From: Brevinematales bacterium
Lineage (GTDB): Bacteria > Spirochaetota > Brevinematia > Brevinematales > GWF1-51-8
Direction of reading: 5' to 3'
DNA length: 64,000 nucleotides
Assembly (NCBI GenBank): GCA_020059465.1
Contig: JAGVBZ010000001.1
Span: 62,001-126,000 of the forward strand
Below the pieces are notes generated by a model. The model was not told the DNA's origin, did not search any database, and worked only from the letters and a program-made list of their open reading frames with translations. The translations under genes and the position numbers were made by a program. Below are positions 2,210 to 20,622 of the stretch, one piece after another (within the stretch, counting starts at the first letter, position 1; each line of letters begins with the position of its first letter).

Positions 2210-2220
2210 CCATTATCGGT

Positions 2221-2248: not shown

Positions 2249-2294
2249 AATAAGGCTTGTTTAATGCACCGGAAATAAATCCAAGGAGCAATGC

Positions 2295-3740
2295 ATGACA
2301 AAGAAAATGTTGGTGTTCGCGCTGATTATCGTTTCAGCCGCGAACTCGCTGTTCGGGGCATCCAAATGGTGGCAGAGCGCTGTGTTCTACCAGATATTCC
2401 CCTACAGCTTTTACGATTCCGACGGCGATAAATACGGGGATTTCAAGGGGATAACCGCGAAACTGGACTACCTGAATTATCTGGGTGTCAACGCGGTATG
2501 GCTTTGTCCGATCAATACCCGTCCCGAGGGTATGTATCATGGATATGCGGTATCGGATTTTTACGCAGTCGACCCCAGACTCGGAACAATGGCGGATTTC
2601 GAGAACCTTCTGAAAGAAGCGCATAAGAAAAACATAAAGATCGTATTCGATTTTGTGATGAACCATACCAGTCTGGAAAATGCATGGTTCGTCGATTCGG
2701 CTACGAATAAATCGGCGAAATTCAAGGATTGGTTCATCTGGGACAAGAAAAACCCCGGATGGCCGAATCCCACGGGCAACACGAAACAGCCCGCATGGAA
2801 CCTGTACGAAAAGCCCGGATATCATAAGGGAGATTATTATTACGCCTCGTTCAATATGACGATCCCCGATCTCAATCATCAGAATATCAACGTTAAGAAC
2901 GAGATCTACAAGATCGCGAAATTCTGGCTCGATAAGGGCGTCGACGGATTCCGCATCGACGCCGCGCGCTATCTGATCGAGACAGGCCCGAACGAGAAAC
3001 AGATCGACACCCCCGAAACCATCAAATACCTCACCGATTTCGCAAATTATTGTAAGAAAATCAACCCGGACGCTTATATCATTGCCGAAGTCTACGCCGG
3101 GCTTGACATCACATCGAAATACTACGACCCTAAAGGCGGCTTGGACGCCGTGTTTAACTTCGATATCGGCGGTAAGGGCGGCGTGATAATGGGTTCGCTT
3201 CAGGTAGGTAAGCCGGGCGGGTTTATTAACGTGCTGAATGCGTTTACATCAAAGAAGGGAATTCCTTCGCAGTTCTATTCCCAATACTTTTCAAACCACG
3301 ATTCAGGGCGTCTCCCTGAAAACCTGAAAGACCCGATGAAAATCAAAGCGGCTGCCGCGATGTTCTTCACTATCCCGGGCGGCGCTCCGTATATCTATTA
3401 CGGCGACGAAATCGGACTGATGGAGGACTATGAGTCGTTCGGCGATGTCAATAAGCGCGGATGCATGATGTGGGACGCTACGAAGAACGGCGGGTTCACC
3501 GCCAACGATTGGACATGGACTAAGAAGATGAAGAAATATTATCTCGATCCCGCGACCGCTGAGGACAAGTATAAGAAAGAAGCGATGAACCTCAATGTGG
3601 AGTACCAGAAAAAAGACCCGCAGTCCATTCTGCAATTATTCCGTAAACTGATCGATTGGCGGAAGAAATACGACGTCCTTAAAAACGGCGATTTCCAGTT
3701 CATCGATGTGAAGATTGACAGTCTGACTGCGATCCAATAG
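2295..3740 (+). CDS. Secreted GH13 alpha-amylase-family glycosidase, lacking most of its C-terminal beta domain
   Basis: A 481-residue alpha-glucan hydrolase-type protein with a signal peptide ending near LFGA (about residue 21). The four GH13 regions are present: DFVMNH (about 119), GFRIDAARY with the nucleophile Asp (about 218), IIAEVY with the acid Glu (about 264) and FSNHD (about 332). The (beta/alpha)8 barrel is complete. The usual all-beta domain C is missing: the chain stops at TAG after its first strand (DSLTAIQ). The next gene, 9 nt downstream and in the same frame, is a lipoprotein that carries a domain-C-like sequence. Probably periplasmic. Exact specificity (amylase, neopullulanase, cyclomaltodextrinase) cannot be read. 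Confidence 0.9.
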   Translation: MTKKMLVFALIIVSAANSLFGASKWWQSAVFYQIFPYSFYDSDGDKYGDFKGITAKLDYLNYLGVNAVWLCPINTRPEGMYHGYAVSDFYAVDPRLGTMADFENLLKEAHKKNIKIVFDFVMNHTSLENAWFVDSATNKSAKFKDWFIWDKKNPGWPNPTGNTKQPAWNLYEKPGYHKGDYYYASFNMTIPDLNHQNINVKNEIYKIAKFWLDKGVDGFRIDAARYLIETGPNEKQIDTPETIKYLTDFANYCKKINPDAYIIAEVYAGLDITSKYYDPKGGLDAVFNFDIGGKGGVIMGSLQVGKPGGFINVLNAFTSKKGIPSQFYSQYFSNHDSGRLPENLKDPMKIKAAAAMFFTIPGGAPYIYYGDEIGLMEDYESFGDVNKRGCMMWDATKNGGFTANDWTWTKKMKKYYLDPATAEDKYKKEAMNLNVEYQKKDPQSILQLFRKLIDWRKKYDVLKNGDFQFIDVKIDSLTAIQ

Positions 3741-3749
3741 GAGACGAAT

Positions 3750-4184
3750 ATGAAAAACAAAACTATCATAATAACAGCATTATTGGCGCTCCTGCTTCCG
3801 TTGGGATGCGGGGAATCGGGCGGCGACGGCGGAACTGTAAAGCCGCAGGAGAAACCGGCGGAAAAACCCGCGGATAAACCCGCGGAAAAAGTCGCCTCGG
3901 GTAAACCGTCCCAGAACTCGATCGTTTCGTATGTGCGCGTATCGGGGAAGCAGGCGATGTTCTTCATCGAGAACACCGGTAAGACGGATGTCCGAATCCT
4001 CCAGGATTTCAAGCACCCCTATTTTACCGATAACGCCGGGAAGATCGCCCTGATCGACTCTGTCGCCGGGAACGATATTACTAAACCTGTATCTGATAAG
4101 ATCGCGCAGGGCGTTATGAACGGAAAAATAGACTTCGACCTCGCGGGACGTGATTTTATCATCCTGATTTTCGAGGCGAAATAG
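3750..4184 (+). CDS. Lipoprotein carrying a GH13 domain-C-like module
   Basis: 144 residues: a lipoprotein signal with Cys20 (LPLGC), a Pro/Lys/Glu linker of repeated EKPA/DKPA (about 30-48), then about 90 residues beginning NSIVSYVRVSGKQAMFFIEN and ending FIILIFEAK. That segment resembles the all-beta C-terminal domain of GH13 enzymes (pattern SVLAYLR...VLVVLN...L...VLVL), which the upstream gene lacks. GGAG at 3740-3743 overlaps the upstream stop and is well placed, so translation is coupled. It may anchor or complement the glycosidase at the membrane; that is inference. Confidence 0.65.
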   Translation: MKNKTIIITALLALLLPLGCGESGGDGGTVKPQEKPAEKPADKPAEKVASGKPSQNSIVSYVRVSGKQAMFFIENTGKTDVRILQDFKHPYFTDNAGKIALIDSVAGNDITKPVSDKIAQGVMNGKIDFDLAGRDFIILIFEAK

Positions 4185-5985: not shown

Positions 5986-7869
5986 CTACTTCCGCAACAG
6001 CGGGGCTATCCCGTACTTTCCGGTTATCTCGCGGAGGTAACTATAATAGTAATACAGCTCTCCCTCACCGTGGTACCATGACGGCCATGACTTCCGGTAC
6101 TCTTCCTTATATCCGTGCTGGACAAACTGGTATTTATCCCCGTAAAAATATTCCACCGTATGAAAAAATTCATGCGCGAACAATCCGTAGGAGAACGGGG
6201 TGTAGTCCTTCGGGATCTGTATCAATCCATGCGCCGTATACCCTTTCGGGACAGCGGCGTCCTGATAGTACACTACCGACGACGACCCGGCGGTACAGAA
6301 GAACGGGAAAATCATGACAAGCGTGTCCGCGTACTTCATCTCGTTCGAAATCGTTTGAATAGGAGATGGTTTGATCGAGCCCCATATCGCGGCGTACATC
6401 GTGATGCCCTTACCCGGTTTGACGCTCGCTTCCCCCGCTGGCTTCCAGTAGGAGACCTGCACCTCGGTCAGGATATTGGTCAGCCTGACATACTTCATCC
6501 CGGCGAGCATCTTTCCCCCGGTCATATAAAAATACAACTGGCGGAACACCTCGAACGCCGCGGGAATAGTCCGCTCCATTTCGGGGGAAAGCGAGAAATT
6601 CGCCGGCGTTTTTTTACCCTCGTCGATAATCACCCCGTTAAAACTCTCCATAGCGATGATGGTAAAACGGTACGGCGCCGCCGAGGTGGCCAGTTTCTTT
6701 CCTTCGCCATTCCAGTACTTGCTCGCCTCTATGATTACCTCGATCGTCTTATTATTGAAACTATCCTTATACTTTCCCAGCCCTTTATTATTCCACACCA
6801 TCGCCTTCTTCAGGAGTTCCACGCCATTGGGGTACGGTTTTTCCGCCATAGCTTTCAGCCCCTCGTTGAAATAAATCTCCGTGATGCGGAACCTGACCCA
6901 ATCCCCCATTTCGGGATTGTTTTTCACGAGGTATGCGTCGGCATCGTTCTCATGCGCCGCGAGCGCGGACAGATCGCCGGACTGCCCGGCGACATCGATA
7001 ATCTGGCGGTAAATCCATCCGTACATTTTATCGTCCCCGCCGGGTTTTTTCAGCCCCTTGACGCATACTCCTATCGCCTCGGCGGGCTTTCCCGTTTGGC
7101 GCAGCATCTCCGAGTACGCCCATGTCAGGTAGTTATCGTTCCTTAACGGAAACACCTCCTCGAAAACGGACAGCGCAAGGGCGTATTTCTCCCGCTTCAT
7201 CCATTCGTACCCGAAAAATTCCGGCGCAATATAATTGGTGTACTTCTCCAATTCGGGGCCGAAATATTTCATAGCAAGCCGATAATATGCGAACCCGTCG
7301 TTCTCATACCCGTCCCCCGCGAATTCTACTGCGCGGTCTAAAAAATATTTGCAGAACATATACCGCGCCCATGAGGTTTTTAATTCCGGGGCGGCGCATT
7401 CGGCTTCGGCAAACTTTTTTTCGAGCGCGAGTACTTTCGGGTTGTCGGGCATATCGTTATAAACAGCAGCCATCAGTCCGGCGATAATATTGACCTTTTC
7501 CTGCGGATTCGCGGCGGGGTTTGTCAACGCCATCGTGTAGTACTTTTCCGCGGACTGGTGATCGCCGAGTTGATGATAAGCCTCTGCAATCGATTTATTG
7601 ACCGCTGAGGGGAAATAATCCGGCGAGATCTGCTTCCATACCCTAATCGCGTCGGCGTACTTTTTATTCTGGTTGAGGATATTCCCATACCATTGAAGGA
7701 TATTATTATTCGACGGGTTCGCCTGATAGGCCTTTTCGATATACTTCGCGGCTGCTGCTTTATCGCCGTTATGATATGCCTGAACGAATTGTCCGTAGTA
7801 TTCCGCTGCCTTATCCGCGCGGAGTCCGGATATGCAGAAAAGAATCAGAAATAAAGCAGTCTTTCTCAT
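5986..7869 (-). CDS. Exported TPR protein with HEFFH metallopeptidase-like C-terminus (short paralog)
   Basis: About 627 residues from ATG 7869, preferred over GTG 7878, which sits on the GGGGG ribosome-binding site. It has a signal peptide, then TPR-type helical repeats (for example YIEKAYQANPSNNNILQWYG), a beta-rich stretch, and a C-terminal AHEFFHTVE motif followed 25 residues later by WPSWYHGEGEL. HEFFH fits the zinc-binding HExxH signature, and a Glu in HGEGE could be the third ligand as in gluzincins. The chain ends soon after this motif, whereas the paralog at 17890-20535 continues with more TPRs. Likely periplasmic or surface; substrate unknown; metallopeptidase activity is inferred. 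Confidence 0.7.
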   Translation of the reverse strand: MRKTALFLILFCISGLRADKAAEYYGQFVQAYHNGDKAAAAKYIEKAYQANPSNNNILQWYGNILNQNKKYADAIRVWKQISPDYFPSAVNKSIAEAYHQLGDHQSAEKYYTMALTNPAANPQEKVNIIAGLMAAVYNDMPDNPKVLALEKKFAEAECAAPELKTSWARYMFCKYFLDRAVEFAGDGYENDGFAYYRLAMKYFGPELEKYTNYIAPEFFGYEWMKREKYALALSVFEEVFPLRNDNYLTWAYSEMLRQTGKPAEAIGVCVKGLKKPGGDDKMYGWIYRQIIDVAGQSGDLSALAAHENDADAYLVKNNPEMGDWVRFRITEIYFNEGLKAMAEKPYPNGVELLKKAMVWNNKGLGKYKDSFNNKTIEVIIEASKYWNGEGKKLATSAAPYRFTIIAMESFNGVIIDEGKKTPANFSLSPEMERTIPAAFEVFRQLYFYMTGGKMLAGMKYVRLTNILTEVQVSYWKPAGEASVKPGKGITMYAAIWGSIKPSPIQTISNEMKYADTLVMIFPFFCTAGSSSVVYYQDAAVPKGYTAHGLIQIPKDYTPFSYGLFAHEFFHTVEYFYGDKYQFVQHGYKEEYRKSWPSWYHGEGELYYYYSYLREITGKYGIAPLLRK

Positions 7870-7916
7870 AATCTGCACCCCCGATAGAATGATATGTACA
7901 TCGGCATCAGGGCGTA

Positions 7917-9098
7917 TTATTTGAAATTCTTCATCAGGATCGCGAGGCGTTCCCCCTCGGATAATGGGACAGGGTTATTCTTATTCTCCGCTTTGACCGC
8001 CGCCTCTTCCAATTCCTTCGCGGTATATCCCGCGTCGCTGAGCGCTGGCAGGCCGCAATCAGAAGTCCATTTATCCATCACCGACACCAGCATTCCGCAT
8101 CCATCCTCCCATCCGCGCGGGACTTTCCCGGAAAGTATGCCGCCCGCTTCGGAGTACTTTTCCAGTGTGGAAAGGTACTTCCCGGGCAGTTTCTTCATTG
8201 CGTCGATATTCGCGCGGTGTCCGGCGGGAGCGAGTATCCCGCACAAAACGCCGTGAGGGACAGCGCGGATCGCCCCAAGTTCGCCCGCGAGCGAATGCAC
8301 CGCCCCCAATCCCGCGTTGGCAAGCGCCGCACCCGAGCAGTACGCCGCGTATGACATCCCGCTTCGCGCCCCGATATCGGAACCGTCGGCACAGGCACGC
8401 TCGAAACTTCCCGCGAATGAAATCATCCCGCTCCGCGCAAGCCCGTCGGTAACCGGCGATCCTTTTGGTGAAACAAAACTTTCGAGAAGCTGTGTGAATG
8501 CGTCGAGGCCGCTCGCTGCGGTCACTTCCGGCGGGCACGTCAGCGATAGCGCCGGATCGATTAACGCTATATCCGGTATCAGGTTATCATGACGCAGAGA
8601 TTTTTTGTATCCCCCGCGACCGATCCTGCTGATGACCGCGTTCTTGGTCGCCTCGCTCCCCGTACCGGCGGTGGTCGGTACGGCGATGAACGGCACCTTG
8701 AAGCCGTCGTATTTCGACGTCCCGACTCCTTCGAGGAATTGTTCGATCGAACCCTTCTGCGGGATCATTGCGGAAACCGCCTTGCCCAGGTCGATCGCGC
8801 TCCCGCCCCCGACCGCGACTATGCCATGTACACTCTTCCTGCGGAACTCCTCCGCCGCCTCGTCCGCCGCCTCGGGTGACGGTTCCCCCTCCGCGCGAAG
8901 TTCGTGCACCCGTATCGACCGTTTCGCCAGAGCGGCGATAAAGTCGTTCCATGCCGGGTTATTATCCATCGACGACGCTCCGCGTACGATGAGGATGTTG
9001 TTCCCTATATCGTCGATCATCGCGGGCAATTCGCTGAAAACGCCCGCCCCGAAGATAACAAGGGGATTCGCGGAATGACGGAATTTTATTTCATTCAT
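7917..9098 (-). CDS. Iron-containing (group III) alcohol dehydrogenase
   Basis: 393 residues of the Fe-ADH/dehydroquinate-synthase-like superfamily. GGGSAIDLGK (about 98-107) binds the NAD(P) phosphates, and PTTAGTGSEAT is the family signature. Metal ligands are seen as Asp in LDAFTQ, His in AVHSLAGE and His in VPHGV. The usual His four residues after the first Asp is Gln here, a variant seen in part of the family, so the metal cannot be assigned with certainty. It oxidises alcohols or reduces aldehydes in the cytoplasm. The start lies 12 nt after the ABM gene stop, so the two are cotranscribed. Confidence 0.85.
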   Translation of the reverse strand: MNEIKFRHSANPLVIFGAGVFSELPAMIDDIGNNILIVRGASSMDNNPAWNDFIAALAKRSIRVHELRAEGEPSPEAADEAAEEFRRKSVHGIVAVGGGSAIDLGKAVSAMIPQKGSIEQFLEGVGTSKYDGFKVPFIAVPTTAGTGSEATKNAVISRIGRGGYKKSLRHDNLIPDIALIDPALSLTCPPEVTAASGLDAFTQLLESFVSPKGSPVTDGLARSGMISFAGSFERACADGSDIGARSGMSYAAYCSGAALANAGLGAVHSLAGELGAIRAVPHGVLCGILAPAGHRANIDAMKKLPGKYLSTLEKYSEAGGILSGKVPRGWEDGCGMLVSVMDKWTSDCGLPALSDAGYTAKELEEAAVKAENKNNPVPLSEGERLAILMKNFK

Positions 9099-9110
9099 GT
9101 ATTATGCACC

Positions 9111-9431
9111 TCATCTGCGGGTTTTCCATAACTCGGGATCGGCCGGAGCGAGCACATTATACGCGACTCCCTCGCGGGGTTTTGCCATCCACCCGGCGAC
9201 CGTATCCTTCCATTTCTTATAGTGCGGAGTCTCCTTATGCGCGGCCGCGCCTTCGGCGCTCCGGTACACCTCGTACAGGGTAAACCGCGCCGGGTCGTCT
9301 TTCGACTGAAGCGCGTCGAAACGCAGGTTGTCCGGTTCGAGGATCGAGTTCCGGTGATTTTCGAGCGTCGCCTCGATAAACAATTCGATAAACTCCGGTT
9401 TGACATAGACGGTTACGCATGTCGCTGTCAT
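9111..9431 (-). CDS. ABM-domain (YgiN/LsrG-like) protein
   Basis: 106 residues: one antibiotic-biosynthesis-monooxygenase fold. It has the N-terminal strand CVTVYVKPEF, the SILEPDNLRFDAL strand, the FTLYEVYRSAEGAAAHKETPHYKKW segment typical of YgiN/LsrG proteins (with the conserved E-Y and H residues) and a short C-terminal tail. Family members are cofactor-free monooxygenases or isomerases acting on small carbonyl compounds. Coupling to an alcohol dehydrogenase suggests aldehyde or ketone detoxification; that is inference. It leads a two-gene unit from its own promoter, with AGGAGG before ATG. Confidence 0.8.
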   Translation of the reverse strand: MTATCVTVYVKPEFIELFIEATLENHRNSILEPDNLRFDALQSKDDPARFTLYEVYRSAEGAAAHKETPHYKKWKDTVAGWMAKPREGVAYNVLAPADPELWKTRR

Positions 9432-9451
9432 AACGCCCTCCTGTGTACTTT

Positions 9452-9480
9452 ATCTTACCCCGGATAGGCGATTCTGTCAA
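9452..9480 (-). promoter_or_regulatory. sigma70 promoter for the ABM/Fe-ADH unit
   Basis: Minus strand: TTGACA (9475-9480), 17 nt, TAAGAT (9452-9457). It lies back to back with the plus-strand promoter at 9504. Confidence 0.7.
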
Positions 9481-9503
9481 CGGTAGAATGGTATTGCAAA
9501 TCG

Positions 9504-9532
9504 TTGACATTTCCTCCCTCACGGCTGATAAT
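9504..9532 (+). promoter_or_regulatory. sigma70 promoter for the CPBP-like gene
   Basis: TTGACA (9504-9509), 17 nt, GATAAT (9527-9532). The -35 is 24 bp from the divergent -35, so the two promoters could be regulated together. Confidence 0.65.
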
Positions 9533-9588
9533 ATTTCCCTAAAAACACGAGAATGCAATACTTTATAAAACGCCCCAAGGAGATAATT

Positions 9589-10371
9589 ATGGTCACCGAA
9601 CCCGCAGTCGAATTCTACCCGTCAGATAACACACCGTCGCCTATTCCGCTTCCGCGAACTTTAATCCTTCTCGCTTCCCGAACAGTGTCGTTCCTCATCT
9701 TTCAGTTGGCGGCCGCGGGAATATTTTTCCTGCGGGGGGCGGTCAATCCGATGGACATGTCGGTTGCATATTGGCCTTACTCCGCGGTTTTCGGGAGCGT
9801 CGTGTCCTATATCCTGTTGATTTCTGCGATGCGGAAGGAGAAGAAATCCGTCCTGTCGTTCTATAAATTCGATAAAAAGACAATCGGCATCGATATTCTC
9901 GTAGTCGCCGGCGCGTTTGTGGTCATGGGTCCGCTTACCTTCTTTCCGAATATATGGCTGGGCACTCTGCTTTTCGGGGACAGCGCGCTGACGATGGATA
10001 TGCTTTTCCGGCCGCTCCCGTCGATGATCGCGATAGCCGCGGCGCTGGTTTTCCCTCTGACTGTCGGAGTATCCGAAATCCCAGTCTACTACGGTTATAC
10101 CCTTCCGCGCCTGAAGGCGAGAACCGGCTTCGTTTGGGCGCTCATCCTGAGCGTGACATTCCACGCCCTCCAGCACTCCGCGCTGCCGTTCATCCCGGAC
10201 TGGCGTTTTATCGTGTGGCGTTTCGGGATGTTCCTGCCGCTCGCGTTCGCGATGGCCCTGCTCGTGTACTGGCGGCCGCGTCTGATGCCATATATTGTTA
10301 TCTGCCATATTCTGATGGATTTGTCCGCAGGATACCTGATCTATAACGCGGCGGTCAAAATTTTACAGTAG
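9589..10371 (+). CDS. CPBP (Abi)-like membrane protein with degenerate motifs
   Basis: 260 residues with 6-8 hydrophobic helices. The C-terminal half resembles the CPBP intramembrane protease/Abi family: SEIPVYYGYTLPRLKARTG aligns with the EExxxR motif but has only one Glu and Tyr in place of Arg; FHALQH fits the second motif; CHILMD fits HxxxN/D. Catalysis is therefore doubtful. The start at 9589 is preferred over an ATG at 9553 because AAGGAG at 9578-9582 is correctly spaced. The aminotransferase gene follows 21 nt later and may be cotranscribed. Confidence 0.65.
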   Translation: MVTEPAVEFYPSDNTPSPIPLPRTLILLASRTVSFLIFQLAAAGIFFLRGAVNPMDMSVAYWPYSAVFGSVVSYILLISAMRKEKKSVLSFYKFDKKTIGIDILVVAGAFVVMGPLTFFPNIWLGTLLFGDSALTMDMLFRPLPSMIAIAAALVFPLTVGVSEIPVYYGYTLPRLKARTGFVWALILSVTFHALQHSALPFIPDWRFIVWRFGMFLPLAFAMALLVYWRPRLMPYIVICHILMDLSAGYLIYNAAVKILQ

Positions 10372-10392
10372 CAGATTATTTCGGGAGAAACC

Positions 10393-11589
10393 ATGAAAAA
10401 CATACTCCGCACCATGGGACATGATTTAATTCTTGAGGATATTGTTATAGCCGAAGGCTTGTACTTGTTCGATTCCAGCGGAAACAAATACGCCGACTTC
10501 GAATCGGGCATTTGGTGCGTACCGTTGGGGCATAACCATCCCTCGGTAATAAAGGCAATTCACGATCAATCCGCACAGATCATACATAACGGATACTGCT
10601 ACGAGACGCCTATTCTCGATGACGCGGCGCGGGAAATTTTATCGATCACGGAAATGCCTGACGGAAAATGCGTTTTTCTCTGTTCCGGCAGCGAAGCGAA
10701 TGAATTCGGGGTGAAGGCGATTAAGAGTATTTCGGATAAGCCCCTTTTACTGACCCTGCACGATTCCTATCTTGCCGCTTACGGTTCTGCTGGAAATAAA
10801 TCCCCCGACGAATGGGTGATCTTTAACTGGGAAGCGTGCGCATCCTGCGAACGGGCGGACAAATGCAGCACGGAATGCAATTATATCGCGGATATACCGT
10901 TTAAGAAAATAGCGGGGTTTGTGTTCGAACCCGGAAGTTCGTCGGGAATGGTGCGGTTTCCCCCCATGGTGCTGATCCGCACACTCGCGATGCTGGTGAA
11001 ACAGAACGGCGGGATAGTCATGGCGAACGAGGTCACGACGGGTATCGGCCGCACGGGCGAATGGTTCGGGTATCGGCACTACGGGCTCACTCCTGATATT
11101 GTAGCAATCGGGAAAGGAATTGGTTCGGGTTATCCCGTCAGCGCGGCGGCGTTATCCGAGATGACTGCCGAAACCCTCACCGCCTCGGGTTTCCATTACG
11201 GACAGTCGCACCAGAACGACCCTCTCGGAGCGGCGGTTGCGCTCGCAGTCATCCGAACGATACGCGGAGAGAACCTCATCGATAACTGCCGGAGTACCGG
11301 TTCTATACTGCTCGCCGGACTTAATGCGATCCGTGAAAAATTATGTATAATCGCAGATGTCCGCGCGCGGGGACTGATGATCGCCGTAGACTTAGAGAAC
11401 GTTCCGGGTATGGATACCGCCGGAATCGTACATCGCAAACTGATCCGGAACGGTTACATTATCGCGCGGCGTCCGGGACTGAATACATTGAGGATAGACC
11501 CGCCGTTGATAACCTCGCCCTCTCAGATAAAGGGGTTTTTACACGTTTTTGAGACTGTTCTCAACGAGGTATATCACTCCGATGAATAG
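10393..11589 (+). CDS. Class III PLP aminotransferase with an internal four-Cys cluster
   Basis: 398 residues of fold-type I. It has the N-terminal GHNHPSVIKAI, CSGSEANEFGVKA, the PLP-lysine segment AIGKGIGSGYPVSA (Lys about 241) and GQSHQNDPLGAA. Two departures from the common class III pattern: the cofactor-binding DEVQTG segment reads NEVTTG, so the Asp that contacts the PLP ring nitrogen is Asn, and residues about 149-162 carry CASCERADKCSTEC, a CxxC-x5-CxxxC cluster that could bind zinc or an Fe-S centre. Substrate unknown. The last codons overlap the DUF4037 gene (ATGAATAG), so the two products probably act together. Confidence 0.8.
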   Translation: MKNILRTMGHDLILEDIVIAEGLYLFDSSGNKYADFESGIWCVPLGHNHPSVIKAIHDQSAQIIHNGYCYETPILDDAAREILSITEMPDGKCVFLCSGSEANEFGVKAIKSISDKPLLLTLHDSYLAAYGSAGNKSPDEWVIFNWEACASCERADKCSTECNYIADIPFKKIAGFVFEPGSSSGMVRFPPMVLIRTLAMLVKQNGGIVMANEVTTGIGRTGEWFGYRHYGLTPDIVAIGKGIGSGYPVSAAALSEMTAETLTASGFHYGQSHQNDPLGAAVALAVIRTIRGENLIDNCRSTGSILLAGLNAIREKLCIIADVRARGLMIAVDLENVPGMDTAGIVHRKLIRNGYIIARRPGLNTLRIDPPLITSPSQIKGFLHVFETVLNEVYHSDE

Positions 11590-12595
11590 AACATTTATCC
11601 CCGGACTCGAATTATGCGAGGGTTATTACTTTGATATTGTCAAACCCTTACTGGAAAAGGAGTTCCCATCGCTCGTTCATTCCGCCGCGCTTATGGGGTA
11701 CGGTTCCGACGTGCTGGGGTACGATAATGCGACATCCATGGATCACAACTGGGGCCCCCGGATGCAGATATTTCTTTCCGAACAGGATTTCCCCGATTAT
11801 GCCGGAAAGATCGACAGTTTTCTCCGTGCGAATCTCCCGGCGGAATACCGGGGCTTCCCGACAAATTTCTCCCAGCCCCGTTACGATCAGACCCAGGTCA
11901 TGGAAGCAATATCCGCTCCTCCTGTCAATCATCTTATCGAAATCGTCAACCTCAGCTTTTATATAAAAAAGTATCTCGGTGAAATAGATATTGATAATCT
12001 CAAAGCCGTTGACTGGGTGAAGATGAACGAACAGAATTTACTTGAGATGACTTCGGGGCGTGTATTCCACGACGGGCTTGGAACGCTTATCCCGTTGAGA
12101 GACAAACTTTACTTCTATCCGGGGGAAGTATGGATTTACCGCCTCGCGGTATTATGGAAGCAAATTGAAGACGAGGAGCCGTTTATCGGGCGGTGTATCG
12201 AAAACTCCGATTTCACCGGGATGAAAATTCTCGTCGCGCGGCTGACCGAAACAATGATTAAAATTTGCTTCACTATCGAGAAGAAGTATATACCATACAG
12301 TAAATGGTTCGGGAGCGCGTTTAAGTGTCTGGACTGTTACACGGAAATTGTTGGATTGGCGGATACCGCACTGACCGAGAACGATCCCGCGCGGATCGAG
12401 GATGCCCTCTGCCGTCTGTATGAGAAAACGGTCGAGCTTCACAACCGCCGGGGCGAACTCCCGCATCTGGATAATAGTATCCGGAATTTCTTCGGGCGTC
12501 CGTACCGTGTGATTTTCGCGGAGACGATAGTAGAAAAACTCAGGGACGCGATCGCCGACCCGGAATTAAAAACCTTTTTAACTGAATCTAAGTAA
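11582..12595 (+). CDS. DUF4037 protein (nucleotidyltransferase-like fold)
   Basis: 337 residues from ATG 11582, which overlaps the upstream stop; a TTG at 11549 is less likely. The N-terminal GYGSDVLGYDNATSMDHNWGPR is the DUF4037 signature and resembles a nucleotidyltransferase active site (GS...D...D). The C-terminal part is helical with LDNSIRNFFGRPYRV. The family has no established substrate. Translational coupling to the class III aminotransferase suggests a shared pathway on an amino sugar or nucleotide-linked compound; that is inference. Confidence 0.75.
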   Translation: MNRTFIPGLELCEGYYFDIVKPLLEKEFPSLVHSAALMGYGSDVLGYDNATSMDHNWGPRMQIFLSEQDFPDYAGKIDSFLRANLPAEYRGFPTNFSQPRYDQTQVMEAISAPPVNHLIEIVNLSFYIKKYLGEIDIDNLKAVDWVKMNEQNLLEMTSGRVFHDGLGTLIPLRDKLYFYPGEVWIYRLAVLWKQIEDEEPFIGRCIENSDFTGMKILVARLTETMIKICFTIEKKYIPYSKWFGSAFKCLDCYTEIVGLADTALTENDPARIEDALCRLYEKTVELHNRRGELPHLDNSIRNFFGRPYRVIFAETIVEKLRDAIADPELKTFLTESK

Positions 12596-12616
12596 GTATT
12601 TAAAAGGAGGCTGCCC

Positions 12617-13078
12617 GTGAATCACGATTTTATTATGCAGTACCGGGGCGGAAAATTCGATCTGCCGGAAATGGATATCCGCACCTACCGCGAGGAATAC
12701 CTGATGCCCGAAGTGGAAATGGAGTCGGATATTTTCTACGACCTCCGGGTACGGCACGATATCCGCCCCCACCGTCTCATCGATTCGACCGAGGCGGAGA
12801 TGGCCGAGATACGGGATTTTTTCAACGCGAACAAGGATACGTTTTATTTCCTGTTCGACGGCGGCGAAATGATCGGGAGCGCTATGGTGCGCCGGAACGA
12901 GATCCATTGCATGAGCGTCGCGCGGAGGTTCCAGCATCATGGGTACGGGTCTCTGCTGACCAAGTACTGTATCAATACCGCGCTCGCGAAGGGCTACGCA
13001 TGCGTGGAACTCCGCGTCCTAAACGACAATACCCCCGCGATCAACCTTTATAAAAAGGTCGGGTTTACTCTATTATAA
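12617..13078 (+). CDS. GNAT-family N-acetyltransferase
   Basis: 153 residues starting at GTG behind a strong AAAAGGAGG site. The GNAT acetyl-CoA loop is VARRFQHHGYGSLLTKY (R/QxxGxG/A type) near 97-113, followed by ELRVLNDNTPAINLYKKVGF, the usual C-terminal signature. The N-terminal third (DLPEMDIRTYREEYLMPE) is family-specific. Acceptor unknown. It follows the DUF4037 gene by 21 nt and may belong to the same transcript. Confidence 0.85.
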   Translation: MNHDFIMQYRGGKFDLPEMDIRTYREEYLMPEVEMESDIFYDLRVRHDIRPHRLIDSTEAEMAEIRDFFNANKDTFYFLFDGGEMIGSAMVRRNEIHCMSVARRFQHHGYGSLLTKYCINTALAKGYACVELRVLNDNTPAINLYKKVGFTLL

Positions 13079-13083
13079 ACGGT

Positions 13084-13422
13084 TTATTTTAAAAGTGATC
13101 TAATAAACCCGACGGACTCCTTAAACAGCGCGAGGTCGCCGTTATAAGCGTCGGGGGCTTTCCGCGCGATAAACACCCACTCCTTCATCGTATGACGGTT
13201 CATCGGGCGGAACTCCCTCGCGTCGGGATCGTCCGCGATAACCGCGCCAACCCGTTCCTTCGGCAGCTTGATACTCACCCCGTCCTCGTAGACACACGCA
13301 AACATCTTCTTTCCGATGGAGTACGCGGGGTATCCGAACGACTTACCCGCCGCGACATCCGGCAATGAAAGAAGCATGCTGTCGAGAACTTTTTTCACTT
13401 CGGGATTGAAGATAGCAATCAT
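13084..13422 (-). CDS. YjbR/TfoX-like small protein
   Basis: 112 residues from ATG 13422, chosen over GTG 13428 because AAGGA is 8 nt before the ATG. It has the alpha/beta pattern of YjbR/MmcQ/TfoX-N-like proteins: GKSFGYPAYSIGKKMFACVYEDGVSIKLP, then a helix and RPMNRHTMKEWVFI, ending in an amphipathic helix. Function unknown; related domains occur in DNA-binding or regulatory proteins. Convergent with the GNAT gene, 5 nt apart. Confidence 0.65.
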   Translation of the reverse strand: MIAIFNPEVKKVLDSMLLSLPDVAAGKSFGYPAYSIGKKMFACVYEDGVSIKLPKERVGAVIADDPDAREFRPMNRHTMKEWVFIARKAPDAYNGDLALFKESVGFIRSLLK

Positions 13423-13525
13423 ACTCACCGTCCTTTTATTGATACCTGATTCTATATCAACCGAATCTATAATTCAAATAATGACGAAGATTCCCGTAAT
13501 CCCGGGATGATATTCGAACTGTTAC

Positions 13526-13664
13526 TGTCATTGCCTGTCGCCTTCGTTAAAGGCGAGCGAGGCCTGAGCCGAAGCATCCTGTTCTTATAATAACAAAGGA
13601 TTATGGCATACTGCTTCACCCCGCGCATCAAAACGATAGTGTAACGCGGGGTATCGCAGTGATA
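13526..13664. repeat. MITE-like dispersed element, copy 1
   Basis: A 139-bp noncoding element starting TGTCATTGCC, with GGCCTGAGCCGAAGCA inside, then ACTGCTTCACCCCGCG, an inner hairpin CCCCGCG/CGCGGGG, and ending TATCGCAGTGATA. The ends form imperfect inverted repeats (TGTCATTGC / GCAGTGATA). A second copy lies at 20623-20737. No coding capacity. Confidence 0.75.
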
Positions 13665-13693
13665 AAAAAAGGCCGACCCTTGAAGGGACGGCC
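13664..13693 (-). terminator. Terminator of the CBM21-like lipoprotein gene
   Basis: Minus strand: GGCCG-T-CCCTT stem with a short loop and its complement, one mismatch, followed by seven T. It abuts the MITE-like repeat. Confidence 0.75.
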
Positions 13694-13713
13694 CTGTGAT
13701 TTTTCGATTGTTT

Positions 13714-14247
13714 TTAGAACTGAGCGGTATAGTTCAGACCATTGTTATTATCCCAGTAGGTCTTTCCGCTGACTTTGTAATAGATAGCGTACTGTACTTT
13801 TGTGCCCGGCTGAATACTGGAGTCGCTCAGTATCTCGAACCTGTCCGTATTCGCGGCGTTATTGTGTGAAATCCAGTACCCGTTATAATCCTTACTGGTC
13901 TTCCAGTTATCCGTGGTATAACGGATACCGACTACCTTATCATAGGCGATGTTGTTCACCTCGGCAGTCACCTTAAGCTGGCCGCTGACATACACGGTTC
14001 CGCCGTACTTGTAGTACTTCAGAAGATCCTGACTGATACGCCATACATTCTTCACGGTGTTCCATTCGATAGAAAGCGCGGGTGCCTTCTGGACTTCCTT
14101 GGTGGAAGTAATCATCGTCTCGCCGTCATCGAAAATTACCGTCTCGTTCGGCGCGAGCACAGGACGGTCGTTCTTAAGCGAACACGCGGAAATACCCATT
14201 CCTAACACGATTACGGCAACCGCCGCAAAAATTCCTTTGTTTCTCAT
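13714..14247 (-). CDS. Lipoprotein with CBM21-like starch/glycogen-binding domain
   Basis: 177 residues from ATG 14247; the upstream ATG at 14259 lies over the GGAGG site. Lipoprotein signal with lipobox ISAC. The domain at about 60-177 matches CBM21 (the fold of PP1 glycogen-targeting subunits): IEWNTVKNVWRI, KVVGIRYTTDNWKTSKDY, and the C-terminal YAIYYKVSGKTYWDNNNGLN, where WDNNxGxNY is the ligand-binding signature. Probably holds alpha-glucan at the cell surface, fitting the secreted GH13 elsewhere in the window. CBM21 is mostly eukaryotic, so this is notable in a bacterium. Confidence 0.7.
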   Translation of the reverse strand: MRNKGIFAAVAVIVLGMGISACSLKNDRPVLAPNETVIFDDGETMITSTKEVQKAPALSIEWNTVKNVWRISQDLLKYYKYGGTVYVSGQLKVTAEVNNIAYDKVVGIRYTTDNWKTSKDYNGYWISHNNAANTDRFEILSDSSIQPGTKVQYAIYYKVSGKTYWDNNNGLNYTAQF

Positions 14248-14316
14248 TTGATCCTCCATAAACCTTTTTTATTGATTTGCACTATAAAAATGCCATATGC
14301 ATTTTTTTAAGGCATA

Positions 14317-14345
14317 ATATTAATGCATTTTGCACTTTGTGTCAA
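14317..14345 (-). promoter_or_regulatory. sigma70 promoter for the CBM21-like lipoprotein
   Basis: Minus strand: TTGACA (14340-14345), 17 nt, TAATAT (14317-14322). The 5' leader contains repeated ATGCAT words. Confidence 0.65.
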
Positions 14346-14383
14346 GTAATTTCGGAAATATTTTTTATTTTTTTCATGGGGGC

Positions 14384-14412
14384 TTGCTTTTCATTTGGAA
14401 AGGGTGTAAAAT
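14384..14412 (+). promoter_or_regulatory. sigma70 promoter for the PilZ gene
   Basis: TTGCTT (14384-14389), 17 nt, TAAAAT (14407-14412), divergent from the lipoprotein promoter; GAGGG at 14428 serves the ATG at 14439. Confidence 0.55.
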
Positions 14413-14438
14413 AGGGTAATGAAAAATGAGGGTATGAG

Positions 14439-14726
14439 ATGGAAAAGCGTGTGTTTCCAAGGGTTGATACGGATTTTCCGACCAAAGCGATAGTTGATGG
14501 AAAATGTATCCCCTGCCGAGTTAAGAACATTTCGTACGGGGGCGCGTCCCTTCTCATCGAGAAGCAGTTTATCGGGCTTCTTGATAAACGGGATGTAGGT
14601 AAGAGGGCGTTATTTTCGTTTAAGCCTGAGGAGCTTAACAACGCTTCCACTTATCGCGGAAAGATCGTTCGCCTTCTCGAGATGGATGATACCGCGTTCC
14701 TGGCAGTGCAGTTTATGGCAGTTTAG
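14439..14726 (+). CDS. Single-domain PilZ protein (c-di-GMP receptor)
   Basis: 95 residues, one PilZ domain. The c-di-GMP-binding motifs are RVFPR (Arg4, Arg8; RxxxR) and NISYGG (30-35; D/NxSxxG). It should sense cyclic di-GMP in the cytoplasm and pass the signal to a partner, perhaps the flagellar motor or a surface process. The EAL-HDOD and GGDEF-EAL genes elsewhere in the window belong to the same signalling system. Monocistronic. Confidence 0.85.
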   Translation: MEKRVFPRVDTDFPTKAIVDGKCIPCRVKNISYGGASLLIEKQFIGLLDKRDVGKRALFSFKPEELNNASTYRGKIVRLLEMDDTAFLAVQFMAV

Positions 14727-14806
14727 TTCATATCCGCTTTCAAGTCTTCGCTATCTAATCTTCAATAATCAGTTGGATTTCTCTTTATAACCAGGAAATT
14801 GGTTTA

Positions 14807-17806
14807 TTATGAATTGATAACCTCGTAGAGCATCTCACTGATCGCCTCGATCTTATAGGGCTTTTCCAATACTCCGCAAAATCCGTGCTTTTTATAATTC
14901 GCCATAACCGGATCGTTGGAATACCCGCTGACAACGATCGCCTTGACCTTCGGATCGATCTCTTTGAGAATCTTCAACGTATCGAGGCCGCCCTTTCCTC
15001 CCGGTATGGTGAGATCGAGGAGCACCGCGATAAACGGATTTCCCGTCTCGGCAGCGTTTTTATACATTTCTATAGCCTGGTCGCCGTCCCCGGCGCACTG
15101 GACGTCATATCCCAGAATTTTCAGCATACTATCGACTGTTTTCTGCACCTGCTCGTCATCGTCTAGAAGCAGGATTTTCCCTTTGCCCAGAATGAGTCCG
15201 GTCTTTTTTATTATATCTACCATTCCGTTATCCTCCAGCGCGGGAAGCAGTATCGAAAATACAGTGCCCTGTCCTAATTCCGATTCCGCATAGATATATC
15301 CCTCGTGCTTACTGAGAATTGAGAACACCGAGGCAAGCCCTAATCCATGCCCCATCGGTTTTGTAGTATAATAAGGATCGAATATCCGCTTCAAGTCCGA
15401 TTTGGGTATGCCCTTTCCGTTATCCTGAAACATGATCTTGATATACGTTCCGGGTTTGATGGGTATCGGCGGAACACCGTTAAAATGGAAATTTTCCATG
15501 ATCACGGATAACTTTCCCCCCTCCGGCATCGCCTCACGCGCATTGATAATCAGGTTGCTGAATACCTGACTCATCTGCCCCTCGTCGAAATTCGCCAGCC
15601 ACGGGCTTTCAGGAAAATCGAAGCTGTAACGCACTTTCGATCCCCGCAGGAGGAAAGTCACGCTTTCCTTTATCAGTTCGGCGACCGAACCGGTTTTTTT
15701 CACAGGGTCTCCGCCCTTAGAGAATGTGAGGAGCTGTCTTGTCAGTTCGCGCGCTTTCAGGCAAGCGGTTTCCGCTTCGCCTAAGTACTCGTATATTTCG
15801 TCGTCCCCCTGCACCGTGCTCCGGCAGATGCTGACATTTCCGAGAATCGCGGTCAGGAGATTATTAAAATCGTGCGCAATTCCTCCGGCAAGAATACCGA
15901 TCGATTCGATTCGCTGGATTTTATTGATCTCCATCTCCATTTTTTTCTTTTCGGTGACATCGTACAGGTAGATCAGGTACCACAGCCCTACGGAGGTGAT
16001 CAGGTATTCCACCTCCCGCTGGGAACCGTCCTTACACATCGCCCTGCTCTCATGGAGCCTGACCTCCCCCTCTCCGCGCTGGGAGTTCCACATCTCGATA
16101 ATATCCTTCCGGTAATTCTCGTCGGGATACGCCGACATCCACCAATTATCCAGTGTTTTCATTTCCTCACGCGAGTAGCCGAATGTTTCGATAAAACAGT
16201 TATTCAGGATCAGTATGGTGTTTTGGGTGTTGGTGACAACAATCGGGATGGGGGATTCTTCTATCATCAGTCTGAATCTTTCCTCGTTTTCCCTGATCTT
16301 ACGTTCCGCGTCCATTCGATCCGTTATATCGTGGCCCGCGGAGACCACCGCGATTATCTCGTCCTTTGCGCCGCGAGCCGCTTTATTCGACCATGCAATC
16401 CACTTCCAGCCCTGCGGGGTAAGTATCCTATGCTCTATATAACTGGAGAAGGGCGAACGGTTCAGGCTGTCCAGCATTTTGCGTGTAATCGCGCGGTCGT
16501 CCGGGTGTACGAACGGCATATACTGGGTGTGCAGAAGCTCTTCTTCCGAGTACCCGACCAATTCGCTGAACGACGGGCTGACGAACTGGAAGTAGCCGTC
16601 CGGATGAAACCTGACGATCAGGTCGGACGAATTTTCTATCAGGAAACGGTACTTTTCCTCATTTTCATGCGCGATTCCTTCTGCGATACGCCTGCGAAAT
16701 ACATTGATAATCAGCAGGATAATAATCACCAATTGAAGGATAAAAAACACCCCAGCAACGATCAATATGTTTCTGTTCTCATAAAAAAACGATTCAGGTT
16801 CATTCAGTATAACACTTCCCTTCGGAAGCAGCATAAACGGTATCGCGAACTTAACCAGCGCCCCATAATCGACAATCGTTAGATTCGGACTTTCCAAGCG
16901 GATTGGGATATTATCCGCCGGTGTTCTGTTCAGGATTTTCAGCGCCATCTCCGCCATCGCTTCGCCCTGCCCTTTCCCGCTCGTAACCACTCCCCCGAGC
17001 ACCCCATATTGTACCTCCTCTTCCCAGCAGGTATAAATCGGGCATGCGCAATTGGTGGTAATCATCCTTAAGCCGTCTTCCATCGATAACGCTATACCGC
17101 TCGGGTCGCGGAAATACGGAAGGTAAAAAAGCGCGGCGTGCTTGGGTATCTCTTTCAGCTTTGTCATTAATTCGTTTAGGGGAAGGCTGTTCAATTCGAT
17201 AAAATTGAAGGCGTTGGCGTAATGCGGATAGAACTGCCGGAGTTCGTCCAGAAGCAGTTGTCCGGTCTCCGTGACGTCCGCGACGACATAGACATCCTTT
17301 ACCATCGGCTGGAGATGAAGGATCAGATCGAGCGTCCCTTTCATGTCGACCGCTTCGATTACTCCGGTAATATTCTTCTGCCTGTCTATCATGGATTTTT
17401 TAAAATTATTGATGCCCGAAAAAACGACCGGAACCCCGGGGAACAGCTCGTTCCTGTTCTTTACGATAAAATCGAGCGCGTTGTTGTCCGAAGCAAGGAT
17501 GAGATCGAAACGGTAATCCTTATATTTCAGAATGTAGGTTTCCTTAAGGATGGGGAACAGATAAGCGGAATGGTAGCGTTTCGTATCCATATACTCCACG
17601 AATAATTCGTGTTTGATATCCGATGCGGCTAATATTTTTTTCACTTCATCGAAAATATTATCGGAAAACGCTTTTCCCGGATGATAGGAGTTCAGAAAAA
17701 GGATCTTCTTGATCGGTTTTGAATGTGAGTACAGCACGCCGGGATAATAAAACAGTATCCCCGCAAGCACAGACAAACAGAAAAAATTTTTCATGAAGAT
17801 ACCCAT
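14807..17806 (-). CDS. Hybrid sensor histidine kinase with periplasmic ABC-substrate-binding-like sensor
   Basis: 999 residues. Order: signal peptide (about 1-28); a periplasmic ABC_sub_bind-type sensor (about 35-310, with KKILFLNSYHPGKAFSDNIF and LILASDNNALDFI); a transmembrane helix (about 347-370); two PAS domains (about 385-500 and 505-625); HisKA with AGGIAHDFNNLL (phospho-accepting His about 645); HATPase_c with DNGKGIPKSDLKRIFDPYYTT; and a C-terminal receiver (about 870-995) with LLLDDDE and VLLDLTIPGG. No output domain, so phosphate likely passes to a separate regulator. An alternative start is ATG 17794. The ligand may be a small nutrient. Monocistronic. Confidence 0.9.
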   Translation of the reverse strand: MGIFMKNFFCLSVLAGILFYYPGVLYSHSKPIKKILFLNSYHPGKAFSDNIFDEVKKILAASDIKHELFVEYMDTKRYHSAYLFPILKETYILKYKDYRFDLILASDNNALDFIVKNRNELFPGVPVVFSGINNFKKSMIDRQKNITGVIEAVDMKGTLDLILHLQPMVKDVYVVADVTETGQLLLDELRQFYPHYANAFNFIELNSLPLNELMTKLKEIPKHAALFYLPYFRDPSGIALSMEDGLRMITTNCACPIYTCWEEEVQYGVLGGVVTSGKGQGEAMAEMALKILNRTPADNIPIRLESPNLTIVDYGALVKFAIPFMLLPKGSVILNEPESFFYENRNILIVAGVFFILQLVIIILLIINVFRRRIAEGIAHENEEKYRFLIENSSDLIVRFHPDGYFQFVSPSFSELVGYSEEELLHTQYMPFVHPDDRAITRKMLDSLNRSPFSSYIEHRILTPQGWKWIAWSNKAARGAKDEIIAVVSAGHDITDRMDAERKIRENEERFRLMIEESPIPIVVTNTQNTILILNNCFIETFGYSREEMKTLDNWWMSAYPDENYRKDIIEMWNSQRGEGEVRLHESRAMCKDGSQREVEYLITSVGLWYLIYLYDVTEKKKMEMEINKIQRIESIGILAGGIAHDFNNLLTAILGNVSICRSTVQGDDEIYEYLGEAETACLKARELTRQLLTFSKGGDPVKKTGSVAELIKESVTFLLRGSKVRYSFDFPESPWLANFDEGQMSQVFSNLIINAREAMPEGGKLSVIMENFHFNGVPPIPIKPGTYIKIMFQDNGKGIPKSDLKRIFDPYYTTKPMGHGLGLASVFSILSKHEGYIYAESELGQGTVFSILLPALEDNGMVDIIKKTGLILGKGKILLLDDDEQVQKTVDSMLKILGYDVQCAGDGDQAIEMYKNAAETGNPFIAVLLDLTIPGGKGGLDTLKILKEIDPKVKAIVVSGYSNDPVMANYKKHGFCGVLEKPYKIEAISEMLYEVINS

Positions 17807-17889
17807 ATTTTATTCCCACTGTATTCCATAAAACAATCGCATATCCTTATGACACAGCCCGAATGAGGGGAATTCCCGCGAATCGTTCT

Positions 17890-20535
17890 TTACTTGGACT
17901 TGGAGTATTTATTCAGATAAAAATCCAGCGTCTTACCGGCAGCCCCGTACTGTTTCGCCTTCTTTAAGTAGGATAGCGCCGCTTTCTTATCGCCCGTTTC
18001 ACCCAGCGCAATCGCATAATTCAGGGAGACATCCTTCAACACATCGCTCTCTTTTATCAGTGAATAATACTTATCGAGGAACTCCTTCGCCTTCGGATAA
18101 TCGATGTCAAAATAAACATAAATATTTGCAATCAACTGTACGGCATATTTGGTGAATTCCGACTCCGGGTGCTTGGTAATTATCGGGAGCAGGCATTTTT
18201 CGGCATTCATGTAATCCTTCGCGATATAGTATATCCGTCCCGCATAATAAAGATCGGAGGGATCGCCGCCGTACAATTTATATGCTGTCAGATAATCGGC
18301 GCATGCTTCCCCTGTCTTCCCTATTTTATCGGCTAAATAGGCCAGCATTGTTAAACGATACCGGTTGGTTTCATCATATTCGATGGCTTGTTTATAATAA
18401 TAATAGGAGTTGGAATAATCCTTCTTTTGAAATGTTAAAAGACCGAGCATCTCGTTGACCTCGTAACCGTACGGGAAATAATTATATGCGTTTTTAAACT
18501 CCTTGAGCGCCGCATCCTTGTCGCCCTTATAGTAATAATCCATCCCGGATTTCTTATAATAGTATGCCGACTTGATATTCACGAAGGCCGTCTGTCGATA
18601 ATAATCCCAGTATTTTTTTACCTGTTCCGGGGATGTGTGATCGGCGTTCATTTTATAATGCATTTTATCGCACCCGGTAGGCAGGACATACTTGTCGAAT
18701 ACGAGCTTGTAGTAGGTCAGTTCGCCTTCCCCGTGATACCACGACGGCCAGTAATCCCTGAACGTATCGCGGAACATATGCGCGATGAAGGGATATCCGC
18801 CTTTCAGCGCCGCGCGGTAGGTGGCCTCGACGTTATGGAAAAACTCATGGATGATCGTCCACGGCTTGGAAAGCGATTTGTCCGATATCTTCATTCCCCC
18901 GCGCAGTTTAGTCTGTTTGATATACGGGACAATGGTCTGTCCGCCGTACGACGCGATGCCGCTCAGATGATGGGACGGCCAGACGTCGCAGAATACGTCA
19001 TACTGATTCCTGTACTCGTAGATCATCCATCCGGGATATCCGGGTATCTGCTCGTCTACGATGTAATTGATTGGGAAATCCTCCAGCGGTTTACCGTCTT
19101 TGCCGTTTATCGGGGAGAGATATATTGTCTGGGTGAACGCCGTAGCGGTCGCGTCTACGAAAACGATATCCATCTCCGGCAGAATCTGCCCGTCGGAAAA
19201 ATAGAAGTAAATCTTTCGGAAAACGTCGAACGACTTAATCAGATCGTTGGTCACCGATTTATCGAGGGACTTTTTCATCGAAAGATTTGTCCCGGCAACA
19301 GATTTCCACACCGCATCCGATTCAGTCCAGAACCAGAAAAGCATATCCAGCCGATAGGCGCTGTTCTTCTTTACCGCGTAGTTCTTATCCCAATACTGAA
19401 CCGCGTCGCCGAGTATCCCGATATCGGACATCCTGATCCAGTTCTGGTACTTTCCCATCCCCATCTCGTAATACTTCTTTACTTTCGCGAAACAGGTTTT
19501 CGATAGTTCCGTGCCGAACGTGTCGAATCCTATTTCCTGGTAGATATTCGCGATAGTGTATTTCACCCAATCGAAGTCCTTGTCGGGGTTCTTTTTAAAG
19601 TACGCAAGCAATTCCTTCTCGAACATTTCGTAGGTTTCGGTATCCTTGAGTTCCGAGGCGAGCCTGACCAGATGGAAGTAGACCCACCTGATCCAGTAAT
19701 CGTGAGAGGCGCTATTCTTATACTTTTTCAATCCCTTCTTGATCGCCTGCAATGCATCGGCGGATTTTCCCGATGATTTCAGGCACTCGGCGTAATACCA
19801 GACATCCTTCATGGTAAATTGCTCGGAAGAAAACCCGGCATAGAGCGATACGGCCTTCGGGTAGATTTTCGCGGCGGCATAAGCCTGAGCGTACAGAAAC
19901 GGGTCATAGTACGCCTCGTATGTCCCGATACCCATCCCGGCATATTCCGCCGATTTCGCGGCATATTTATCCGCATCCGTGTAATTCCCGTTCGTCCCGG
20001 CGCCGATCGCAATACTCTGGTAGTACTTCGCGATCTGGTATAACGGATAGGTATAGTTGAGGGCGGAATTGTCCTTCATGTATGCCGAATACAATGGAAA
20101 CATATCCTCCAGCCCCTTCGTATCGTTGAGCTGAATCAGGGCGTTGACCATTCCGGAGTAAAGATACTGCTTGAGACTGCTTTTATCGTCTTCGAGGGAA
20201 ATCCCGTGTTTGAGGTAGGGTAACGCCCAGGCAGGTTTTTCCATCTTCAGGTAACAGTGCGACAGATAAAAAGCTGCCGCCAGCTTCTGGTATTCCGGGT
20301 CCAGCTTTTTAAACATCGCAGCGGCGTCGGCATATTTTTCGCTCTGGTATAACACGATGCCGTACCAGTAGATGATATAATCCGTGCCGGGGTTCTCGGC
20401 ATATGCTTTTTGTATATATTGCAGGGATTTTGGATAATCTTTCGCGTTCCACGCCTTCAGAAATTCGTCGTATGAGGATACGGCCCATGAGACGGAAAAT
20501 ATTAAAAGAAACGCGGCTCTTAATAATATTTTCAT
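17890..20535 (-). CDS. Exported TPR protein with central HEFFH metallopeptidase-like domain (long paralog)
   Basis: 881 residues: signal peptide, N-terminal TPR block (about 20-330), a beta-rich domain, IIHEFFHNVE (about 560) followed 29 residues later by WPSWYHGEGEL, and a second TPR block (about 655-870, for example YYKQAIEYDETNRYRLTMLA). The N-terminus and the HEFFH...WYHGEGEL region clearly match the shorter protein at 5986-7869. HExxH plus the downstream HGEGE Glu fits a zinc peptidase of the gluzincin type; activity is inferred. Likely periplasmic or outer surface. Single gene with its own promoter. Confidence 0.7.
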   Translation of the reverse strand: MKILLRAAFLLIFSVSWAVSSYDEFLKAWNAKDYPKSLQYIQKAYAENPGTDYIIYWYGIVLYQSEKYADAAAMFKKLDPEYQKLAAAFYLSHCYLKMEKPAWALPYLKHGISLEDDKSSLKQYLYSGMVNALIQLNDTKGLEDMFPLYSAYMKDNSALNYTYPLYQIAKYYQSIAIGAGTNGNYTDADKYAAKSAEYAGMGIGTYEAYYDPFLYAQAYAAAKIYPKAVSLYAGFSSEQFTMKDVWYYAECLKSSGKSADALQAIKKGLKKYKNSASHDYWIRWVYFHLVRLASELKDTETYEMFEKELLAYFKKNPDKDFDWVKYTIANIYQEIGFDTFGTELSKTCFAKVKKYYEMGMGKYQNWIRMSDIGILGDAVQYWDKNYAVKKNSAYRLDMLFWFWTESDAVWKSVAGTNLSMKKSLDKSVTNDLIKSFDVFRKIYFYFSDGQILPEMDIVFVDATATAFTQTIYLSPINGKDGKPLEDFPINYIVDEQIPGYPGWMIYEYRNQYDVFCDVWPSHHLSGIASYGGQTIVPYIKQTKLRGGMKISDKSLSKPWTIIHEFFHNVEATYRAALKGGYPFIAHMFRDTFRDYWPSWYHGEGELTYYKLVFDKYVLPTGCDKMHYKMNADHTSPEQVKKYWDYYRQTAFVNIKSAYYYKKSGMDYYYKGDKDAALKEFKNAYNYFPYGYEVNEMLGLLTFQKKDYSNSYYYYKQAIEYDETNRYRLTMLAYLADKIGKTGEACADYLTAYKLYGGDPSDLYYAGRIYYIAKDYMNAEKCLLPIITKHPESEFTKYAVQLIANIYVYFDIDYPKAKEFLDKYYSLIKESDVLKDVSLNYAIALGETGDKKAALSYLKKAKQYGAAGKTLDFYLNKYSKSK

Positions 20536-20582: not shown

Positions 20583-20622
20583 AATAAAAACCCCGCCGGA
20601 GGGCTTGTTTACGAACTGTTTT

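Follow-up and report, generated by a model that had tools for sequence, protein, structure and literature searches.

A probable exported metallopeptidase family with an HExxHxxE core and TPR scaffolds in Spirochaetota

Described systems and the two genes of the locus

The closest described precedent for the proteins reported here is BepA (YfgC), a periplasmic M48 zinc metallopeptidase whose TPR solenoid makes contact with substrates and with partners; its M48 domain is N-terminal, its TPR domain C-terminal, and its metal ligands are H136, H140, E201 and H246 (PMC7950410). The first-pass annotation of our locus had found the combination of a peptidase with TPRs unfamiliar, and BepA supplies the precedent, with the M48 domain placed ahead of the TPRs. 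Like BepA, the proteins described below appear to be exported and bring HExxH together with TPRs. However, the resemblance is one of layout only: in our proteins TPRs precede the core or flank it on both sides, the motif of the core reads HExxHxxE...H, and hhalign gives the core a profile similarity of 0.9% to M48. Membership of the core in M48 is thus not supported by these comparisons, while a genuine M48 is encoded elsewhere in the same genome.

The YgjP-like (PF01863) and SprT-like (PF10263) zincins, which are cytoplasmic or nuclear proteins lacking TPRs, resemble our family in having a strand followed by the HExxH helix (predicted in the family), a further His and a downstream P-x-W. They differ from it in the gap between the second and third His (5 residues in YgjP, 14 in SPRTN and 10-20 in the family), and the family has no significant HMMER match to them. 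In SPRTN the metal ligands are His111, His115 and His130, that is, HExxH and a His 15 residues on (PMC5128726). With the M1, M9 and M34-type gluzincins the family shares HExxH; a downstream Glu-bearing helix with an aromatic segment ahead of it is a further resemblance, the helix being predicted in the family. Unlike M1, it has no PF01433 match and its Glu is not invariant, being Gln in several members.

Two members of the family are encoded on the minus strand of the window, by which we mean the whole 64,000-nucleotide stretch of Brevinematales DNA that was analysed. The short-form gene (5986..7869, 627 aa, P0001) specifies a signal-peptide-like N-terminus, N-terminal TPRs at residues 31-116 (7522..7779; Pfam TPR_14/16/19, lowest E 6.5e-10) and a C-terminal putative peptidase core at residues 385-627 (5989..6717). 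The long-form gene (17890..20535, 881 aa, P0002) specifies a signal-peptide-like N-terminus, a TPR region at residues 22-284 (19684..20472; Pfam TPR matches at 22-82 and 246-284), the putative peptidase core at residues 380-655 (18571..19398; taken separately as P0003) and a second TPR region at residues 657-864 (17944..18567; Pfam and NCBIfam TPR matches). The cores were delimited by alignments (A1-A5 for P0001) and matches to the family profile. In P0001 the core carries HEFFHTVE (residues 566-573, 6151..6174), His585 within QHGY (6115..6117) and WPSWYHGEGEL with Glu604 (residues 595-605, 6055..6087). Its counterpart in P0002 carries HEFFHNVE (residues 563-570, 18826..18849), His586 within AHMF (18778..18780) and an identical WPSWYHGEGEL with Glu605 (residues 596-606, 18718..18750). 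The distance from the second His of HExxH to the first Trp is 25 residues in P0001 and 29 in P0002.

That these two reading frames are paralogues sharing HEFFHxVE and WPSWYHGEGEL at this spacing, that both have a signal peptide and N-terminal TPRs, and that TPRs flank the core on both sides in the long form whereas the short form stops after the motif, had already been noted at the first pass, and our analysis bears this out. P0001 and P0002 are 27% identical over 627 aligned residues (BLASTP, E=2e-51) and the alignment covers the whole core of about 240 aa, beyond the motifs; the sharing of motifs therefore reflects homology rather than chance. Over the first ~20 residues both proteins have a hydrophobic stretch that comes after one or two basic residues, and such an N-terminus is present in 39 of the 43 aligned family members, as called by a crude hydropathy scan rather than by SignalP. 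P0001 ends 22 residues past GEGEL. Since many independent members likewise end ~60-80 residues past HExxH, the short form represents a normal architecture, and a truncated gene is ruled out.

A bounded family within Spirochaetota

Whole-genome profile searches recovered the family from 30 of the 393 Spirochaetota genomes sampled (~1 in 13), belonging to 22 of 168 genera, in up to four copies per genome. Members occur in the Spirochaetes MAGs GWF1_49_6, GWF1_51_8 and GWB1_36_13 and in the cultured Turneriella parva DSM 21527 (L053; identified by its plasmid, a 100% match). When the search was repeated with a profile built from 43 members, it gained a single further match, a distant one; the set is thus well bounded within Spirochaetota. 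The distribution over the phylum is patchy, and no members turned up in profile searches of the other families that had been sampled within the order and class to which the window belongs. It had been proposed that the two copies represent a lineage-specific family. This is right in part only, given the patchiness across the phylum and the ancient split between P0001 and P0002.

Searches of plasmid, phage and IMG/VR viral collections gave no relatives. The scan of all phyla used strict peptide patterns alone, and the range of the family is established for Spirochaetota only. Three apparent relatives were discarded: a Saccharibacteria penicillin-binding protein with a chance IWPSWYK (L059), a large protein of a phage in which HEFVH occurs by chance (L106) and a sequence that overlaps isoleucyl-tRNA synthetase (L020). 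A far relative (L104, positions 1369-3483 in G051) carries HEWLHNVE, a laminin-G-like domain and a C-terminus resembling a secretion tail. Because it stands alone in the phylum, it could possibly be the tip of a family residing in other phyla.

Compared with Pfam, NCBIfam and the PDB, singly and as profiles, the core gave no credible match: the matches were to TPRs or noise, the latter including antibody and SpaR entries in the PDB profile searches. Aside from the TPRs, these searches place the core in no known non-enzymatic family; it is such a placement that the first-pass annotation had named as speaking against an enzyme. In the literature we found no paper containing the string HEXXHXXE, and none linking Turneriella, tetratricopeptide and metalloprotease. 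As judged from these sequence comparisons, the family is real, bounded and undescribed in the libraries searched, and its members are probable exported metallopeptidases.

Two layouts recur. In one, the core is C-terminal and follows TPRs or a TPR-like region, as in P0001, L028, L033, the T. parva protein and others; in the other, the core is followed by more domains, such as the TPRs of P0002. In other members what follows the core is BPL_N (L032), a calcineurin-like phosphoesterase (L050), a transglutaminase together with a KY Ig-like domain (L046) or a ricin-B lectin (L054), and the lectin is N-terminal in L072. The first-pass annotation had suggested possible action on surface or periplasmic polymers, and such fusions would fit a role outside the cytoplasm. 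This mix of domains, together with the export signals, points to a role in extracytoplasmic processing of proteins or glycoproteins. If this is correct, Spirochaetota, of whose periplasm and surface little is understood, would possess an undescribed family of exported peptidases with a testable member in the free-living T. parva, and a TPR solenoid and a periplasmic metallopeptidase would have been joined a second time, independently of BepA. The motif also serves to annotate proteins that profile libraries now spot by their TPRs alone.

The putative metal site and competing readings

Conservation was counted over 43 aligned members (alignment A5), most of them 15-40% identical to P0002. The His, Glu and His of HExxH and the Pro of P-x-W are invariant (43/43). 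The Glu three residues past HExxH (+3) is found in 41 members, as is Arg166 (P0003 numbering), and Asp134 (same numbering) in 42. A His lies 11-21 residues past the second His of HExxH in 40 members, and in the other three (L063, L069 and L072) this position, or one close to it, is Asp. The automatic alignment brought 36 of these His residues into register; those of L021, L043, L052 and L053, like the Asp in L069 and in L072, were located by visual inspection. By comparison, the column of the GEGEL Glu is variable, with Glu in 33 members, Gln in 6, Gly in 3 and Ala in 1. Substitutions of the +3 Glu by Asp or Gly and of the GEGEL Glu by Gly or Ala occur among L052, L067 and L072, the last of which also has Asp in place of the third His; these natural variants are of use for the ligand question. 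The metzincin signature HExxHxxGxxH/D is not found, its Gly position being Glu in 41/43 members, and the only Gly at that position (L067) is not followed by a His or Asp three residues on in the required register.

The first-pass annotation had proposed a zinc metallopeptidase in which the GEGEL Glu completes the HExxH site. The peptidase still provides the best reading, but this Glu has lost ground as the third ligand. The conserved His/Asp position is the better candidate, since the GEGEL Glu varies and is replaced by Gln among other residues. An exchange of His for Asp would fit a metal ligand, whereas an exchange of Glu for Gln would fit poorly. We therefore lean towards HExxH with His586 over HExxH with Glu605 (P0002 numbering).

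Comparison with peptidase profiles had been suggested as a check. Among the Pfam matches listed for the 43 cores, with E values of 10 or less, there was none to Peptidase_M48 (PF01435), PF01863, PF10263, PF01433, M90 or M34; P0001 and P0002 themselves have none to PF01863 or PF10263 above the curated cut-off, and no sequence match was obtained to a peptidase family of NCBIfam or to a solved zincin. Profiles were also compared with each other by hhalign, with the family's own subfamilies as positive controls (mutual recovery 95-99.8%). Here, the core reached 58% over 46 columns against the SprT-like profile and 44% over 47 columns against the YgjP-like profile. The YgjP score was 35.8, compared with a maximum of 27.9 in 160 column-permuted controls that kept HExxH, none of which scored as high. 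These scores point tentatively towards YgjP and SprT among the zincins, through a weak likeness that seems to extend past HExxH alone, and we claim no membership on their basis. Moreover, the third-His column of the family falls in a gap of the YgjP alignment and is not aligned with the third His of those families, so the alignment gives no confirmation of the ligand assignment. The permuted controls for M48 had artefactually high scores and were left out. For M90, 60 spirochaete genomes provided no sequences from which to build a profile, and for M9 and M34 the comparison was by the Pfam scan.

Structure prediction had been proposed as well. Two AlphaFold2 runs on six sequences returned models with pLDDT of 61 and 57. 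Both of these low-confidence models show strands, the HExxH helix and then another helix, which starts with the GEGEL Glu or beside it; this order would be expected of a zincin. Foldseek gave nothing significant with them, and matches would be meaningless at such pLDDT. Because the predictions are of low confidence, both the fold and the metal site are treated here as putative.

The reading that we favour, and consider rather likely, is that P0001 and P0002 are exported zinc metallopeptidases of the HExxH type, belonging to a family without a profile in the libraries searched, with TPRs that dock substrates or partners. We base it on the conservation of HExxH, of the +3 Glu and of the downstream His or Asp, and on the prevalence of export-type N-termini. 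The core would fold as a zincin in which both HExxH His residues bind zinc and the Glu (Glu564 in P0002) activates water as a general base. The third ligand would most likely be the His (His586 in P0002), or sometimes the Asp, 11-21 residues past the second His, while the GEGEL Glu would line the site or, less likely, be a ligand itself. The core would then cleave peptide bonds, and the TPR solenoids, situated in the periplasm or at the outer membrane, may target cleavage by docking either the protein substrates or a complex of partners. Accessory domains (ricin-B lectin, transglutaminase, phosphoesterase and BPL_N) could aim the core at other extracytoplasmic jobs.

It is possible that the core is instead a gluzincin, in which the GEGEL Glu is the third zinc ligand and the inter-motif His binds the substrate or transition state, as in collagenase-, M1- and lethal-factor-like peptidases. 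HExxH followed by a Glu-bearing helix is indeed the usual gluzincin layout, and the residue is Glu in most members and, in each of the AlphaFold2 models, begins a helix or adjoins its first residue. We nevertheless regard this arrangement as unlikely, because six members have Gln and four have Gly or Ala at the position while HExxH stays, and because profile similarity to M1 (20% over 9 columns, with 4 of 60 permuted controls equally high) and to M48 does not exceed chance. Some HExxH proteins are not peptidases, and the core might hydrolyse non-peptides such as nucleotides, phosphates or glycans, the TPRs serving as a scaffold. The fusions with phosphoesterase, BPL_N and lectin domains would suit such a role, as would the closest profile similarity, to YgjP-like proteins whose function is not firmly known to be proteolytic. 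However, exported HExxH proteins whose active site has the strand-then-helix arrangement are mostly peptidases and the union of TPRs with a peptidase has precedent, which makes the non-peptide hydrolase improbable.

Still less probable is a TPR scaffold with a merely structural HExxH region, or a peptidase that has decayed and become inactive. TPR proteins are often non-enzymatic, and P0001 evolves faster than its neighbours (46% identity to its orthologue versus 57-77%). However, a decayed site would vary first, whereas no other part of this family, with members mostly 15-40% identical, is as conserved as HExxH.

To extend the favoured peptidase reading, we tentatively propose, though the whole of it may well not hold, a new zincin family defined by HExxHxxE-x(7-17)-[H/D]-x(8-14)-P-x-W and a variable Glu/Gln helix. 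It would constitute a Spirochaetota-wide plug-in secreted protease, which most members mount on TPR scaffolds and others fuse to lectin, transglutaminase, phosphoesterase or BPL_N domains; in the case of P0002, the histidine kinase encoded alongside may be its working partner.

Gene history and neighbourhood

P0001 and P0002 are not sisters in the family tree, and tree and synteny together rule out a recent tandem duplication. The P0001 orthologue in a related genome (L174) occupies the same chromosomal place. In the tree P0001 pairs with L028 of GWF1_51_8 (G003, matched by contig identity), at the same place, between an alcohol dehydrogenase gene and a gene for a 151-aa membrane-protein-like product. 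The P0002 orthologue is 67% identical and in the same synteny, P0002 orthologues lying between genes for a Cys/Met PLP enzyme and a hybrid histidine kinase. In three related genomes an extra long-form copy, 37-39% identical, stands in tandem beside the P0002 orthologue (L173 14420-17065, L057 7622-10267 and L056 3433-5286); it is absent from the window's genome.

The hybrid histidine kinase gene (14807..17806, minus strand) begins 83 nt downstream of P0002 and encodes an ABC_sub_bind sensor, PAS, HisKA, HATPase and receiver domains (Pfam), the sensor domain resembling a periplasmic binding protein. Its linkage to P0002 is conserved in the genus (G002, GWF1_51_8, L057). A consensus scan finds a promoter-like TTGACA-17-TAAACT just upstream of P0002 (20554..20582, minus strand), preceded by a terminator-like stem (20588-20606). 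Given the 83-nt gap and the promoter-like site ahead of P0002, co-transcription of P0002 with the kinase gene is plausible.

Elsewhere in the window, an alpha-amylase-like gene (2295-3740) encodes 481 aa, compared with 586 aa in its syntenic orthologue (L174 6910-8670), and is followed by a separate small lipoprotein-like gene (3750-4184); a truncation or frameshift of the alpha-amylase-like gene is possible. The product of a further gene, at 13714-14259, is small and either exported or lipoprotein-like, and a CBM21 starch-binding module makes up its C-terminal half.
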